Of a DNA stretch of 64,000 bases, positions 29,888 through 35,887 are shown piece by piece. The DNA lies in NCBI GenBank assembly GCA_013298215.1, contig JAAFKE010000001.1:72692-136691 (forward strand). Direction: 5' to 3'. Each line of letters begins with the position of its first letter. Positions within the stretch are counted from its first letter, which is position 1. The notes under the pieces were generated by a model that saw only the letters and a program-made list of their open reading frames with translations, had not been told where the DNA came from and made no database searches. Source of the DNA: Cytophagales bacterium (lineage in GTDB: Bacteria > Bacteroidota > Bacteroidia > Cytophagales > Spirosomataceae). The position numbers and the translations under genes were made by a program.

Positions 29888-30649
29888 TCATATCTCCAAA
29901 AGCCGCTTTAAATTATCGTGAAAACTCAATCCCGTTTCGAGTTTTGATTGTTTGGTGTCTTGCATGGCTACCAAATATTTACCGTTAAAATGTCGCTCTA
30001 ATTCTTTTATTTTCAATGAATTAACAATGTGTGAGCGGCTGATTCTGATAAAACTTTCGGGCAGTTTTTCCTCCAAATTGCTGATGGTATAATTGGTAAT
30101 GTGTTGTTTGCCGTCGAGCGTATTCAGAAAAACGTATTTCTCTTCGGCATGAAAAAACGAGATTTCGTTGAAGGCAATAAACAGAATTTTATCGCCGCTT
30201 TTTACCGTTATCGAGTGAATCTCTTTTTTGGGTTTGAGTTGCTCAAAAAGCTCCATCAATGATTCAGAAGACAGTTTTTGAACTTTGTTTTCGGTCAGTT
30301 TTTGCAATTTCTGAACCGTTTTTTCTAACCGCTCTTTCTCAATCGGTTTCAGCAAATAGTCCACCGAATTTTCTTCAAAAGCCTTGATGGCAAACTGGTC
30401 GAAGGCCGTAACAAAAACCACCATCGGCATAAAGTCGAGTTTTGCGAGCATTTCAAAACCTGACAAAATCGGCATTTCAATGTCCAGAAAAATCAAATCG
30501 GGTTTCAAGGCTTCAATTTTTTCGAGTCCTTCTTGGCCGTTTTGGGCTTCGCCAATTACCTCAAAAGTGTCGTCATATTGCCCCAAAAGCCGTTTTAGGC
30601 GACTAATCGCAATCGGTTCATCGTCGATGAGTATGGTTCTAAATTTCAT
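29888..30649 (-). CDS. LytTR-type response regulator
   Basis: 253 residues. The N-terminal receiver has the acidic pair IDDEP, the phospho-acceptor D56 in DLIFLDIEMPILSG, and the switch residues VFVTAFDQFAIKAF ending in K. The C-terminal LytTR DNA-binding domain (about 145-253) has IHSITVKSGDKILFIAFNEI and the ESFIRISRSHIVNSLKIKEL motif. It is the cognate regulator of the solenoid histidine kinase, whose stop overlaps its start by 11 bases. LytTR regulators bind pairs of short direct repeats; none was evident nearby. Confidence 0.95.
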   Translation of the reverse strand: MKFRTILIDDEPIAISRLKRLLGQYDDTFEVIGEAQNGQEGLEKIEALKPDLIFLDIEMPILSGFEMLAKLDFMPMVVFVTAFDQFAIKAFEENSVDYLLKPIEKERLEKTVQKLQKLTENKVQKLSSESLMELFEQLKPKKEIHSITVKSGDKILFIAFNEISFFHAEEKYVFLNTLDGKQHITNYTISNLEEKLPESFIRISRSHIVNSLKIKELERHFNGKYLVAMQDTKQSKLETGLSFHDNLKRLLEI

Positions 30650-32816
30650 TTTGGTTAATTGGTAACGTAATCATCACTGCTTTTTCGGGTTGGTTTTCAA
30701 TGTCAAAGGTGGCTTTTTCGCCATAGACAATTTTAAGTTTTTCTTTGATGCTTCTTAACCCAAAACCACCGCCGAGCAACTCGTCAAAAGCGGGGCCGTT
30801 GTCGTGTATTTTGATGCTCAAATGGTCAGAAATTTTAGTAATTTTTATCTCAATTTTACCATCGTGTGTAATTTTTGAAATACCGTGTTTGATGGCATTT
30901 TCGACCAGCGGTTGCAACAAAAATCTTGGTATTTTTTGCGTTAGGGCTTCGTCTTCGCACAAAATTTTGTAGTGAAGTCGGCTGCCAAAACGCACCTGTT
31001 CGATGGCCAAATACGATTTTATGATTTCTAATTCATCGGCAATGTTATGAAAGTTTTCATCGGTTCGGCCCGTGGTATATCTAAATAATTTTGAAAGCTG
31101 AATCGTCATATCCTCGGCTTTTTCGGGGTTTTCGTGAATAAGTCCCGCGATGCTGTTGAGCGAATTATACAAAAAATGCGGGTTGATTCTGGCTTCCAAA
31201 GCGTCTAATTGTGCCTTAGATTTGAGCTTTTCGAGGTTCAATAACTGGTATTCTTGTTCCGATATTTTGCGGGTAAGTTTTCGGGTACTTTGCCAATAAA
31301 AAAGGTAAATACAACTTACAATTGGCGGCAGAAAGTTATAGAATATGCTAAAATTATTACCTGCACTTTGAAGCGTACTTCTGTCTATTTTGCTCCAATA
31401 AAAAATACCAACCAATATTTGAAAAATAACCACCCAACCAGACGTAAGCACAATCAACGCCACGTATTTTGCCCAGTTGGTTTTGATTATGCCCTCCAAA
31501 AAATGCAAGAAAATATAAATGGCACAAAACGCCCCCAAACTACTGGCAATATTTGAGTAGAAAACGCCTCTATTGACAGGAGCCAACGTACTTTCTGAGT
31601 TGAAAAACTCTAAACTAAAATACACGATACCGCTCAGGCCATAGCCCAACAACAAACAGAAAACGAGCGTAAAGAGTACGCTGTTAATATCAAACAAAAA
31701 TGGCTGTTTGTCGGGCAAAACGGGCGATTTTTGAAAATTTTGCGGCTGTTTTGGGCGTTCATTTATTGGCTTCGCAACTTCTTTTTCAGCAACGACATTT
31801 TGGCTTGCTTCAAAAACTGGTTCGGGTATTTTACGCAAAACTTCCTCAATCCGAACCTTGCCGCCACCCGTTTTGATATTGATATGTTTGCCCCCGCCGT
31901 TGAGCTTTCCGTTGATTCGATTTTTGGTAATGATCCCCTCAAAGTTCTGAAAACCAGCGTGATAGACCCGAGTGCCTTTTACTTCAAAGTCCATGGGCGT
32001 GTCCATCGGCAAATACGTGGTAATGTTGCCGCCCGAGGTGTCAAACCAAGCATATTCTTTGATGTAGGGCATTTCGGCGGTGATATTGCCGCCCAGCGTG
32101 CTTGCCCCGACGTTGCCGCTCATGTTTCTGAGTTTAATATTGCCGCCCTTGGTGCTACATTCCAGTTCGCCCACCACGTCGGCAGCTTCGATATTGCCGC
32201 CCCAAGTGCTAAAATGTATCTGCCCTTTGTGTTTCAAAATCAAAATATTGCCGCCCTTGGTATCCACTTTTATATAGCCGTTGTTTTGGGTCAAAACGAT
32301 GTTTCCGCCCATGGTTTCGGCGTTGATCTGGGCTTCGCAATCTAAAATTCTGATGTTTCCGCCCATGGTTTTGGCCTGTAAATTTCCCTGCGAATTTTCC
32401 ATCAACAACCGCCCGCCCCAAGTGGTGAATGTATGATTTCCGATGAGGTTTTTAAGCGCAATATGCCCATTCCAAGTTTTAGAGACGGTTTTTAGATTTT
32501 TCGGCAAGAATATTTTGAAAGATATTTGGGGGAAATAAAACCAAAAAAATGGGTGAAAATAATTGGGTTTTGACCAAATAGTAAGCTGATTGCCCGACAC
32601 GCCCATCGTGAGTTGGTAGGTGTCCGAATCGAGCAAATCAACAGGTTCACGAACCAAAAAAAGCGACAACCAACTACGCACCGAAAAATATACTTCGACT
32701 TTTACGGACGTTTCGTCATGCCCCACCAGCTCGATATTGCCCGATGAAGTATGAAGTTGAAGGTTGTTAAAGCCCTCATTTTCAAAGGTTTTAGTAATTG
32801 CGGGTAGGTGGTTCAT
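30639..32816 (-). CDS. LytS-type histidine kinase with N-terminal DUF4097-like beta-solenoid
   Basis: 725 residues from the Met at 32816 (a Met 11 codons earlier overlaps the upstream gene). The N-terminal 330 residues form a beta-solenoid with T-x-G-G-N-I type repeats; the GG pairs fall every 18 residues for seven turns (134, 152, 170, 188, 206, 224, 242), with an eighth 20 residues on (262). This resembles the DUF4097 or toastrack fold. A Pro-rich linker is followed by four membrane segments (about 375-520), then a His_kinase domain with the H-box INPHFLYNSLNSIAGLI and an HATPase with FLLQPLVENAIKHGI and a GFGLRSIKEKL G-box. There is no signal peptide, so the solenoid is either cytosolic or inserted N-out. 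The region is AT-rich. Confidence 0.9.
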   Translation of the reverse strand: MNHLPAITKTFENEGFNNLQLHTSSGNIELVGHDETSVKVEVYFSVRSWLSLFLVREPVDLLDSDTYQLTMGVSGNQLTIWSKPNYFHPFFWFYFPQISFKIFLPKNLKTVSKTWNGHIALKNLIGNHTFTTWGGRLLMENSQGNLQAKTMGGNIRILDCEAQINAETMGGNIVLTQNNGYIKVDTKGGNILILKHKGQIHFSTWGGNIEAADVVGELECSTKGGNIKLRNMSGNVGASTLGGNITAEMPYIKEYAWFDTSGGNITTYLPMDTPMDFEVKGTRVYHAGFQNFEGIITKNRINGKLNGGGKHINIKTGGGKVRIEEVLRKIPEPVFEASQNVVAEKEVAKPINERPKQPQNFQKSPVLPDKQPFLFDINSVLFTLVFCLLLGYGLSGIVYFSLEFFNSESTLAPVNRGVFYSNIASSLGAFCAIYIFLHFLEGIIKTNWAKYVALIVLTSGWVVIFQILVGIFYWSKIDRSTLQSAGNNFSIFYNFLPPIVSCIYLFYWQSTRKLTRKISEQEYQLLNLEKLKSKAQLDALEARINPHFLYNSLNSIAGLIHENPEKAEDMTIQLSKLFRYTTGRTDENFHNIADELEIIKSYLAIEQVRFGSRLHYKILCEDEALTQKIPRFLLQPLVENAIKHGISKITHDGKIEIKITKISDHLSIKIHDNGPAFDELLGGGFGLRSIKEKLKIVYGEKATFDIENQPEKAVMITLPINQNEI
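32028..32417 (-). repeat. 54-bp coding repeat (18-residue solenoid turns)
   Basis: Within the kinase gene, codons for GG of the T-x-GG-N-I motif recur every 54 bases for seven turns, then once after 60. The copies differ in sequence, so this is an old protein repeat, not a recent tandem duplication. Confidence 0.85.
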
Positions 32817-32821
32817 GCCGA

Positions 32822-33466
32822 TTACGGTGCGATTTTTGATAGTGTCCATTTGGCCGTTGCTTCGCCCCAGGTTGGGTGCATACCCGATACTGGTTTAAAA
32901 GTAGCGAATTGTTGCATGGCTTTCTCAAAAACGGGTTTTGCTTTTGCTTTGCCACCACCAAACATTTCGGGCGTGTAAAAAACTCCCTGTGCTTCTAAAA
33001 GCGTGATTCTTGGGTTTTTGGGATTGATTTTCTTGGCGTTTTCGAGGGCTTTTTCCACCACGCTGCCGTATTTCATCCAACGAATAGACGGACTAACCGC
33101 CATGCGGGCATTGGCAATATTGGCTTTCAGCACCTCCGTTTCGTCGTTAGTTACCTTCATTTTTTCGATATTGGCCACAAAAACATCAGCTTTGTCGAGC
33201 AATAAATCTCGTTTGTCATCATCTTTTTCGACGTAAGATTCCATCATGTAGCAATACGCCACCCAATAATTTGGTAGCCATTCGACTTTTTCAGCCGCCG
33301 CAATTCGTTCCATTTTATTGGCTTGGGGCTGTAAAGTTGTGCCAAATCGGGTGCTTTGAATTTCTGTTACCAAGCCTTCCATGGCCTTGGCGTAGTTCGG
33401 GTTTTGTGCCAACAAAACCGACACTTTTAGAATTAAAATGCTGACAATTAATAAGATACGTTTCAT
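32822..33466 (-). CDS. Exported helical (TPR-like) repeat protein
   Basis: 214 residues with a signal peptide ending near LLAQ. The mature part is all-helical and Ala/Lys-rich: YAKAMEGLVTEIQSTRFGTT, an aromatic stretch WLPNYWVAYCYMMESYVEKD, then LLLDKADVFVANIEKMKVTN and NPRITLLEAQGVFYTPEMFG, resembling tetratricopeptide helices. It ends with GMHPTWGEATAKWTLSKIAP. I recognise it as a Bacteroidota-type periplasmic protein often sitting beside signal or receptor genes, function unknown. It lies 34 bases after the TonB receptor stop and just before the kinase, so it could link the two. Confidence 0.75.
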   Translation of the reverse strand: MKRILLIVSILILKVSVLLAQNPNYAKAMEGLVTEIQSTRFGTTLQPQANKMERIAAAEKVEWLPNYWVAYCYMMESYVEKDDDKRDLLLDKADVFVANIEKMKVTNDETEVLKANIANARMAVSPSIRWMKYGSVVEKALENAKKINPKNPRITLLEAQGVFYTPEMFGGGKAKAKPVFEKAMQQFATFKPVSGMHPTWGEATAKWTLSKIAP

Positions 33467-33500: not shown

Positions 33501-35663
33501 TTAATCCATATCGAGCGTGGCCTCTCTCGGCTTTCTATCCAATTTTCCGATGCTCCAAGATACGCCGCAAAAGAAAGTACGATAGACCAAAGGTTGGACT
33601 TCAAAACGTTGTTTGCCGTCTGACGAATAGCGGTAGCCGAAGACATTTTTACGTCCCAAAACGTTGTCGAGTGTGGCATAAAGTACGATAAAATGCTTTT
33701 TCACTTGTTTGATGTAGCTCGTGGCCAAACTCAAATTCTGGAAAGAAGGTGTCCAGATTGGGTTTTTCAAATCGCTGCCGTATTCATAGACGGGTCGCCC
33801 CGATGTGGCCGTAAAAGTTGCGCCCACATTTAGGCCGATGGTGGGGATAAAGTGCTTATAAACCAGACTAAAATTGTGTTTTGAGGCAAAAGTAGGCATC
33901 ACTTGGGCGGCATAGTTTCTAAATTTTCGCTCGGTGTCCAAATACGAATACGTTACCCAAATGTCAGCGTTTTTGATGGTTTTTTGATCCCTAAAAAACA
34001 CGTCAAAACCATTGGCAAAGCCCTTGCCCGAATTGTCCGACGTTCCCGTTGGAAAACGATAGGGATTGGGGTCGAAGAAAGCCGTTTTCTCAAAAACCAA
34101 TTGGCCGTACTGCTTCGTAAAGGCTTCGATTCTGAACGTGCGGTTGTCTTTGATGCGTTGGTAATTCAAAATCAAGTGGTCGGCCAGTTCGTAATTCAGC
34201 GTTCGATTGAGGTACAAATAGTTTTTTTCGGGTGTTTGATAAAACCGTCCAGCCGCCAGCGATACCTGTGAGTACTGCCCCGTTTTTTGTGCCAAAGAAA
34301 TCCGTGGGGCCACGTTAAAGCGGTCAATGACCGACGTGTATTCGCCCCGTAGCCCAATTTTTGCGGCCAATTTTGGGGTAAAATAAAACTCAGATTCCGT
34401 AAAAACTGCCGAGTAATTATCTTTCAGATTGAGGTCAAATTGGTTGAAAATATTACCCGATCGAATGGCGTGGTATTCTGCTCCAACGCTGATGGTATTA
34501 CTTTTTTCGCTTCCAAAAAGCCGATTCAAAACCACTCGCCCCTGGGTGCGTTCATCAAATCGATCGCCTTTGTCGTTGCCCGTTTTAATCAAATCTTTAT
34601 TATAGCTATACGAAAAACCAGAAAGGAAAACCCAGTTGCCATCTTCGGAAGTACTTCGGTATGAGGCATTTGAAAAGAAATTTTTGTTTCGCAACGAAAA
34701 AACAGAACTTTCCGCTGGCTTATCAAACGACCTAATTCTAAGACCAGAAACATTGTCTGAGTACGTTCCGTAGATTTTAAGCGTGCTATTTTTGGTCAAG
34801 TTTTCGTTGATGGTCAGCGATGCGCCAATGGCTTCGGGAATTTTTTCAAAGTCAATATTGGTTTTGACCAAACCTAAAAACGGGGCGAGATTTGAGTAGA
34901 AAAGCGTGCCATTTACCGAGCCTTTGTGGGTGTAAGAAGCCGATAGCCCAGCCAGATTGGCGTTGAGGTTCAGGCTGCTGGCGTCGCTCACTTTGTCTTG
35001 GGTTTGCAGCAAAAGCACCGACGACAACGCCTGTCCGTACTGAGCCGAGTAGCCGCCCGTACTGAAAGCCGTGCCTTTGAACATAAACGGGCTGAATCGA
35101 CCACGCTGCGGCACGTCAGGCGTGCTGCTAAAAAACGGATTCTGGACAATCATGCCGTCAATCACCGTCTTGGTCTCGTTGGCCGAGCCGCCCCGCACGT
35201 ACAGCCCTTCTTGCTCGCCCACCCGATTGGCCCCTGGCAAAAGCTGCATCACGGCCGTAATATCTGCCCCGCCGCCCGCCGTTGTTACAATGTCTAAGGG
35301 TTTGAGCATCACCATTTTCTTCTCGTCCGATGCCTCAAAAGTCCCCGCCGTAATGACCACCGCATTGAGCGTGTTGATGGATTCTTCTAAAATAAAATCT
35401 TGCTGAATCTCGCCTTTTTCAATCTTGATTTTTTTGTTGGTAGGCTTATAACCCAACATCGAAACCGAGAGAATTTTATCGCCAAGCTCATCGGTTTTGA
35501 AACTGTACTCACCCTTTTCGCTGGCCGAAGCCCCGTCATACGAGCCTTCAATCTGAATATTTGCCCCTGGCAAAACCGCCCCTTTTTTGTCGGTAATTTT
35601 GCCCTTAATGGTGGCTTGCGACAAACCAATGAATGGCAGTAGTAAAAACAAAAGTGTCTTCAT
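33501..35663 (-). CDS. TonB-dependent receptor-like outer membrane protein with carboxypeptidase-regulatory-like domain
   Basis: 720 residues with a short signal peptide (cleavage near GLSQA). A CarboxypepD_reg-like domain (about 18-100: TIKGKITDKKGAVLPGANIQ) precedes a plug domain (about 125-210: ITAVMQLLPGANRVGEQEGL then YVRGGSANETKTVIDGMIVQ) and a beta-barrel ending with an aromatic-type strand. It is shorter than a typical SusC protein and has no SusD or DUF4249 partner adjacent. It is the first gene of the four-gene operon TonB receptor, helical protein, kinase, regulator, so it may be both the sensor input and the target of the two-component pair. Confidence 0.88.
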   Translation of the reverse strand: MKTLLFLLLPFIGLSQATIKGKITDKKGAVLPGANIQIEGSYDGASASEKGEYSFKTDELGDKILSVSMLGYKPTNKKIKIEKGEIQQDFILEESINTLNAVVITAGTFEASDEKKMVMLKPLDIVTTAGGGADITAVMQLLPGANRVGEQEGLYVRGGSANETKTVIDGMIVQNPFFSSTPDVPQRGRFSPFMFKGTAFSTGGYSAQYGQALSSVLLLQTQDKVSDASSLNLNANLAGLSASYTHKGSVNGTLFYSNLAPFLGLVKTNIDFEKIPEAIGASLTINENLTKNSTLKIYGTYSDNVSGLRIRSFDKPAESSVFSLRNKNFFSNASYRSTSEDGNWVFLSGFSYSYNKDLIKTGNDKGDRFDERTQGRVVLNRLFGSEKSNTISVGAEYHAIRSGNIFNQFDLNLKDNYSAVFTESEFYFTPKLAAKIGLRGEYTSVIDRFNVAPRISLAQKTGQYSQVSLAAGRFYQTPEKNYLYLNRTLNYELADHLILNYQRIKDNRTFRIEAFTKQYGQLVFEKTAFFDPNPYRFPTGTSDNSGKGFANGFDVFFRDQKTIKNADIWVTYSYLDTERKFRNYAAQVMPTFASKHNFSLVYKHFIPTIGLNVGATFTATSGRPVYEYGSDLKNPIWTPSFQNLSLATSYIKQVKKHFIVLYATLDNVLGRKNVFGYRYSSDGKQRFEVQPLVYRTFFCGVSWSIGKLDRKPREATLDMD

Positions 35664-35887
35664 GGCTGAGTATAGGTGGTTTAAGGATTTTGATTATGCC
35701 ACAAAACAACATCGGCCGAGCCATACCCAAAACTACTTTCTGACGAATGCAGATTTTAGCGCAATGAGTTGTGGTTTTAGGGCGATAAATTTATCTCACG
35801 GCCAGGTATTACGGCAAAAACACAAAGGGTTGGGGGCGAGTTTTCTTTCTCAAAAATTCTGTATCTTTACGGTCAAACACGCAGTAT
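35664..35887. other. Intergenic region between divergent operons
   Basis: A 224-base AT-rich gap between the TonB receptor and the lipoprotein operon. TATCTTTA at 35862-35869 is a one-mismatch -7 box for the plus-strand operon, with no clear -33. No coding frame was found. Confidence 0.4.

Follow-up and report, generated by a model that had tools for sequence, protein, structure and literature searches.

A predicted cytosolic toastrack solenoid at the N terminus of a LytS-type histidine kinase in a Cytophagales bacterium

Genes and domains at the kinase locus

The window, a stretch of 64,000 nucleotides from a Cytophagales bacterium, carries on its reverse strand a histidine kinase gene together with genes for a TonB-type receptor, a small TPR-like protein and a LytTR response regulator. 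In the direction of transcription the features are:

35737..35789, (-): predicted operator from region comparison, half-sites at 35789 (TTTATC), 35768 (CTCATT) and 35747 (TTCGTCAGAAA), 21 bp apart
35702..35709, (-): predicted -7 box TTGTTTTG, at +38 bp relative to where the third half-site starts
33501..35663, (-): TonB-dependent-receptor-like protein with CarbopepD_reg_2 and Plug domains (Pfam), recurring in related loci
32822..33466, (-): small TPR-like protein with a signal-peptide-like start, 214 aa from an internal Met, no family above cut-off, recurring in related loci
30639..32816, (-): toastrack-4TM-PF06580 histidine kinase, 725 aa from M12 (Pfam, repeats, homologue starts, model)
31827..32816, (-): N-terminal toastrack (DUF4097) beta-solenoid of the kinase, residues 1-330 in M12 numbering (Pfam and model)
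31695..31817, (-): linker of the kinase, low-confidence and probably disordered, residues 334-374 (pLDDT below 50; K/R-rich in most of 11 homologues)
31296..31688, (-): four membrane helices of the kinase, 377-405, 412-440, 447-472 and the membrane part of 488-541 (hydropathy, model, loop charges)
30642..31250, (-): His_kinase (PF06580) and HATPase domains (Pfam; conserved boxes)
29888..30649, (-): LytTR response regulator (Response_reg 75.4 bits, LytTR 73.5 bits), overlapping the kinase end by 11 nt

The longest reading frame of the kinase spans 30639-32849 (-) and encodes 736 aa. Translation likely starts at M12 of this frame, with the ATG at 32816, because other fused homologues start at or near the matching residue; an earlier note, made from the sequence alone, had given coordinates (30639-32816) that agree with this start. 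The gene for the TPR-like protein ends 5 nt before this ATG, and the regulator gene adjoining the kinase encodes both a receiver and a LytTR domain. Based on Pfam analysis of the 736-aa frame, DUF4097 (PF13349) matched residues 79-334 with 31.5 bits (cut-off 22.9), His_kinase (PF06580) matched with 94.6 bits (cut-off 25.2) and HATPase_c with 29.6 bits (cut-off 26.4). The phospho-acceptor, N and G boxes were conserved among 20 homologues, and four hydrophobic segments were found by hydropathy. The description of the protein in the earlier note as a LytS-type kinase with four membrane segments and a DUF4097 or toastrack-type solenoid was therefore borne out by the Pfam matches, the conserved boxes, the hydropathy and the modelled helices. 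The 5TMR-LYT membrane domain is a mark of LytS proper, and no match to it up to E 1 was found in the Pfam scan of the kinase. PHROGs gave matches to the kinase part only.

GG turns were located at residues 145, 163, 181, 199, 217, 235 and 253 of the 736-aa frame, in exact steps of 18, and an eighth at 273, 20 residues after the seventh. The earlier note had read seven T-x-GG-N-I turns spaced by exactly 18 residues and then an eighth. The spacing of the seven was correct, but only six of them are GGNI, the turn at 145 reading TWGGRL; the eighth turn is present, but two residues out of step. In residues 111-300 there were 45 identities at lag 18, as compared to 28 for the best value at any lag in 2000 composition shuffles. 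One homologue (L022) lacks a single 18-residue unit in the alignment, as expected for a solenoid.

An AlphaFold2 model of the kinase, built on a 20-row alignment of the window protein and proteins of related loci, had a mean pLDDT of 78.6 and a pTM of 0.47, at which the placement of the domains relative to each other is unreliable. The repeats folded as a solenoid, the outcome on which the earlier note had made its reading depend. The modelled solenoid was all-beta, with 10-residue block means of pLDDT 74-96 over residues 1-320; residues 333-374 of the linker fell below 50, and helices were modelled at 377-405, 412-440, 447-472 and 488-541 (M12 numbering), the last continuing into the kinase helix. 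As the criterion for a toastrack fold we took a right-handed beta-helix that, like 4QRK, has a special region at its N terminus; 4QRK is named as a toastrack structure by Ravi et al. (PMC11237479). Foldseek matched the kinase model to 4qrk with E 8.6e-6, but with an rmsd of 14.9 over the alignment. The best VIA-align match over the solenoid, 7muc_AM of the Legionella Dot/Icm system (Z 14.8, 259 residues, rmsd 4.1), shared 13% identity and was taken as a likeness of fold only. Further toastrack chains were absent from this list of matches, to which no weight is given. When the solenoid-plus-membrane profile was searched against the sequences of solved structures, a single hit (E 0.08) was obtained; it fell in the membrane part and was taken as chance.

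Side of the membrane and relation to Lia/Psp systems

The even number of helices, the charge pattern and the lack of a signal peptide strongly indicate that the solenoid is in the cytosol, on the same side as the kinase. In 11 homologues the mean number of K and R residues was 7.9 in the linker, 1.3, 1.7 and 1.8 in loops 1, 2 and 3, and 3.6 on the C side, with a near-invariant Lys directly after loop 2. These charges fit an N-in/C-in topology with linker and kinase on the positive side. The earlier note had posed the side of the membrane as a question and had reported no signal peptide, and none was found in the window kinase even when the upstream in-frame stretch was included. With upstream in-frame codons counted, 27 of 28 fused proteins had no signal-peptide-like hydrophobic segment at the N terminus; in the exception, from Arcicella (L084), hydrophobic in-frame codons precede the ATG, but there is no upstream ATG. 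The stand-alone toastracks examined, 23 of 23, start signal-peptide-like, after one of the 24 rows picked (L073) had been set aside as the front half of a frame-broken fusion. Cysteine content was dropped as a test of compartment, as it was not diagnostic (1-7 per solenoid in fused and 1-3 in stand-alone proteins).

The side on which toastrack domains lie is disputed in the literature. In the passages available, the DUF4097 part of LiaG is called extracellular (PMC9239133), whereas Ravi et al. argue that the toastrack is intracellular (PMC11237479). The genome studied here contains both forms, one fused to the four-helix kinase and lacking a signal peptide, the other a stand-alone paralogue (L007) that has one and adjoins an ABC ATPase gene. 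This paralogue and the view taken of LiaG would suit a kinase solenoid that lies outside the cytoplasm and senses the periplasm or envelope, as conventional sensor domains do. We regard such a placement as very unlikely, given that nearly all fused proteins lack a signal peptide and that four membrane helices put the N and C ends on one side. With both ends of the kinase in the cytosol, as predicted, the solenoid could not touch the periplasm, but could dock a partner in the cytosol or at the membrane surface.

The toastracks of Lia/Psp systems (LiaG, LiaF, YvlB; DUF4097/DUF2154/DUF2807) belong to the same Pfam family as the window solenoid and, as here, are frequently associated with membrane signalling and two-component systems. 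According to PMC11237479, they are encoded by a separate gene or fused to PspC or to LiaI-LiaF-TM and tend to lie C-terminal to the membrane part, whereas the window toastrack is at the N terminus and belongs to the kinase polypeptide. Toastrack proteins have been linked to Lia/Psp operons and to the response to a membrane-active bacteriocin (parts of PMC11237479 and PMC12791056), and the window kinase has a weak match to the LiaG model, as would suit an envelope stress system of the Lia/PSP type. However, the LiaG equivalog (NF049997) scored 41.9 bits against a cut-off of 285, and the kinase gene shares its operon with genes for a TonB-type receptor and a TPR-like protein. No PspA/LiaH was found above cut-off in the genome (best match 17.9 bits versus 33.9), and no PspC in the kinase locus, PspC being found only at contigs C34, C18 and C12. 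We therefore consider a Lia/PSP-type system unlikely. The proposal of the earlier note that the solenoid reads the state of the membrane or envelope is at this point a hypothesis. The PspC-histidine kinase of Actinobacteria, in the three-component system of Corynebacterium glutamicum, is alike in having a Psp-type N-terminal input (described in excerpts of PMC9239133); it differs in that the domain is PspC and not a toastrack or pentapeptide solenoid, and in phylum. On contig C34 of the same genome, away from the window, a LiaF-like toastrack gene and a PspC gene were found close together (L005, L310).

Fused homologues and sister kinases

Searches with solenoid-plus-membrane and kinase-core profiles detected the toastrack-kinase fusion in 27 of 222 genomes of the family, one copy being frame-broken. 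The architecture is thus not confined to one strain; such confinement had been named in the earlier note as a possible refutation. A profile search of genome contigs led to 25 confirmed loci. The solenoid was present in 21 of them (including Runella, Emticicia, Arcicella, Flectobacillus, Jiulongibacter, a Saprospiraceae MAG and a Bacteroidetes MAG), and the other four matched in the membrane part only. Across ten other genera the fused protein is 38-59% identical to that of the window. A kinase-core search covered 390 genomes of the order, including those of the family itself, and matched 72 of them. Twelve of these belonged to other families, where the open frames (370-430 aa) were too short for an N-terminal solenoid. 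Among the listings and passages covered by the literature searches, no toastrack-kinase or pentapeptide-kinase fusion in this group was found. In Emticicia agri (L096, 9001-12096) frame breaks, from sequencing error or decay, divide the kinase into 342 + 414 aa and the LytTR regulator into 116 + 133 aa. In Runella (L081, 8354-8965) and Emticicia (L091, 8423-9004) a gene for a membrane protein of about 200 aa with no Pfam match overlaps the start of the toastrack kinase by 4 nt.

The four loci matched in the membrane part only (Telluribacter, two Dyadobacter, Persicitalea) encode the same membrane-kinase core with a pentapeptide-repeat N terminus. Three of the four proteins were scanned, with PF00805 scores of 72.3, 63.9 and 76.6 bits (cut-off 20.2). 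A model of these kinases from 4 sequences was weak overall (mean pLDDT 59.4), with strands at 20-residue steps in the N terminus (block pLDDT 59-82). It was matched to the pentapeptide repeat proteins MfpA (6zt4; Z 13.2, 86 residues, rmsd 1.9) and HetL (3du1; Z 12.8, 104 residues, rmsd 2.1), which resemble this N terminus; in the sister kinases the repeats are the N-terminal part of a membrane kinase.

In total the kinase core was matched in 148 of the 222 family genomes. The matches classified were the 150 listed, from 147 genomes and fewer than the total; 140 came from fetched loci and were sorted by motif counts, and 10 from the earlier loci. Apart from the three pentapeptide proteins checked with Pfam, classes were assigned by motif counts and reading of the N termini. 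Among the 150 matches listed were 102 pentapeptide and 26 toastrack kinases and 19 with neither module, as well as one frame-broken toastrack, one frame-broken pentapeptide and one pentapeptide remnant. The module class tracks genus closely, genus g31 having all three, and two genomes of that genus (G200, G201) hold both solenoid kinds. Five of the 19 rows with neither module (genus g36), together with G032 and G033, have long branches in the kinase-core tree and could represent other paralogues.

The same partners, a LytTR regulator, a TonB-type receptor and a small secreted TPR-like protein, accompany all three kinase forms. This was determined in a census of 165 loci from two collections, in which some organisms occur twice and two frame-broken loci were counted as module-free. 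A LytTR regulator lay near the kinase on the same strand in 37/37 toastrack, 97/106 pentapeptide and 21/22 module-free loci, a TonB-type receptor in 19/37, 53/106 and 13/22, and a TPR-like protein in 20/37, 59/106 and 20/22, respectively. Eight of the nine pentapeptide loci lacking a regulator match belong to genus g31, and one is on a short contig (L212). UppS lies downstream in 55 of the 106 pentapeptide loci. In the pentapeptide operons L100-L103, UppS-like, BamA-like and two OmpH-like genes (named by eye) follow the regulator on the same strand.

A kinase-core tree, calculated by a short search on the 132 of 165 rows left after removal of near-copies, united 24 of 27 toastrack rows in one starred clade and placed the pentapeptide rows in a separate group together with module-free rows. 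The three module labels required 5 changes on the tree, as compared to 51 in shuffles; owing to long branches, the deep order and the position of the three outlying toastrack rows are uncertain. The occurrence of two unrelated solenoids, or of none, on one kind of kinase suggests that the solenoids are exchangeable input modules. The separate grouping of the two forms and their joint presence in two genus g31 genomes would also be expected if they were ancient paralogues with different inputs, sorted by gene loss and not by N-terminal exchange. We give this origin a substantial chance, somewhat below even; against it, 145 of the 147 genomes in which a match was classified lack one form or the other, and both occur with the same three partners and the same promoter layout. 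An independent parallel to exchange between the same two solenoids is found in HAAS/PadR systems, as HAAS combines with the toastrack and also with pentapeptide repeats (Ravi et al., PMC11237479, in the excerpts available). They differ in their PadR-type regulation, in a pentapeptide form mostly from Firmicutes and in having no histidine kinase.

Predicted operator and role of the solenoid

A general consensus for LytTR half-sites, scanned upstream of ten TonB genes, reached the threshold at three of them, as compared to 23% of shuffles, and was dropped. Comparison of the regions upstream of TonB genes with one another then revealed the operator. There were 78 such regions, or 74 without the four duplicated between collections. 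A repeat site, defined as at least 8 of the 11 letters of TTCGTCGGAAA, was present in 70 of the 74 (10/12 toastrack, 49/50 pentapeptide and 11/12 module-free). The motif TAnnTTTG, which we take to be the Bacteroidota -7 element, started exactly 38 bp on in 58 of these 70, and T[AT]nnTTTG did so in 63 (6/10, 46/49 and 11/11). A half-site TTC[AG][TC]C was seen again at -21 and -42, where matches peaked at 4.14 of 6 letters each in 51 non-redundant regions (background 2.0, sd 0.30), the consensus being drawn from the same regions in which it was counted. At least 4 of 6 letters at -21 were found in 10/10 toastrack and 10/11 module-free regions, but in only 23/49 pentapeptide regions.

The exact site occurs once in the 3.55 Mb of the bacterium's own genome, ahead of the kinase operon, with one single-mismatch match elsewhere, and could serve as a simple read-out of solenoid function. 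The strict pattern was detected in 135 of 222 genomes, often once and in some cases away from the kinase operon, as compared to 13 genomes for the reversed control. In the fetched whole-genome set, the strict repeat plus box was found within 6 kb at only 5/17 toastrack versus 76/103 pentapeptide loci. Where the TonB gene is absent, the operator pattern often stands directly before the kinase, as it does in 26 loci of the pentapeptide form and 2 of the module-free form; a promoter was looked for and not found in several toastrack operons lacking the TonB gene.

LytTR operators have been described as pairs of repeats, direct or inverse, each 9-11 nt long and separated by spacers of 11-13 nt (PMC4847170). 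The repeat length and the 21-bp spacing fit this description, which with moderate strength points to the repeats as the predicted binding site of the LytTR regulator. In LytTR systems an operator placed in this way with respect to the -7 box would fit activation, and we tentatively propose that the regulator activates its own operon and does not repress it. YpdA, a PF06580-type kinase, and YpdB, like other LytS/LytTR systems, combine a LytTR regulator with direct-repeat operators, as here. Unlike the YpdA/YpdB type, the present operator has three half-site positions at 21-bp steps, and we know of no cytosolic beta-solenoid in YpdA.

Taken together, we lean towards a self-regulated system of the LytS/LytTR class in which the solenoid, lying in the cytosol, provides an exchangeable input by docking or gating and the operon is activated via the repeats. 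A kinase of the LytS/YpdA class (PF06580) that spans the membrane with four helices and lacks a sizeable periplasmic domain would carry the toastrack in the cytosol on a flexible linker, and the solenoid, together with the membrane segments, would set kinase activity. The kinase would phosphorylate the co-transcribed LytTR regulator, which would bind the direct repeats, some 50 bp upstream of the predicted start of transcription, and switch on the genes for the TonB-type receptor, the secreted TPR-like protein, the kinase and itself. Since the output side (regulator, operator and promoter) is constant and the N terminus variable, the N terminus is most simply an input or modulator, and a docking or gating role for it has weak to moderate strength. 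Points against this reading are the pentapeptide kinases of one genus, which have no LytTR gene nearby, the small share of toastrack loci with the strict repeat plus box, and the hydrophobic upstream codons of the Arcicella homologue. Ravi et al. propose, in the sections available, that the toastrack is a docking surface beneath the membrane (PMC11237479).

The solenoid is not indispensable to the system, because related kinases in the same operon setting lack or replace it. Neither module was present in 19 of the 150 listed matches, most of which keep the partners and promoter layout, and one genome has a pentapeptide remnant only. This would fit an N-terminal module that is not an input but acts in oligomerisation, stability or membrane placement, or is a passenger, with the four helices as the sensor. 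We consider that rather improbable, as the fused protein is kept across ten other genera and as two unrelated folds of like shape in the same place would be odd for a passenger. Within the preferred reading of the solenoid as an input, the toastrack and pentapeptide forms might even be functionally equivalent, each a rigid cytosolic solenoid beneath the membrane that docks or measures a common partner, an equivalence that recurs in HAAS-PadR; we put this forward as a doubtful extension. In that case the fused toastrack would serve as a scaffold for signalling inside the cell, and the exported stand-alone paralogue would act outside it. With the promoter layout unchanged, the presence of a pentapeptide helix in place of the toastrack resembles a natural domain-swap experiment.

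No TonB or LytTR genes were found near the operator of two split pentapeptide loci in the stretches fetched, where the operator stands ahead of a 2TM-domain gene. In genus g31 (L316, 1565-1960; L317, 684-1083) the operator pattern precedes a small 2TM-domain (PF13239) gene, at a distance of some 11-29 kb from a pentapeptide kinase lacking an adjacent LytTR gene.
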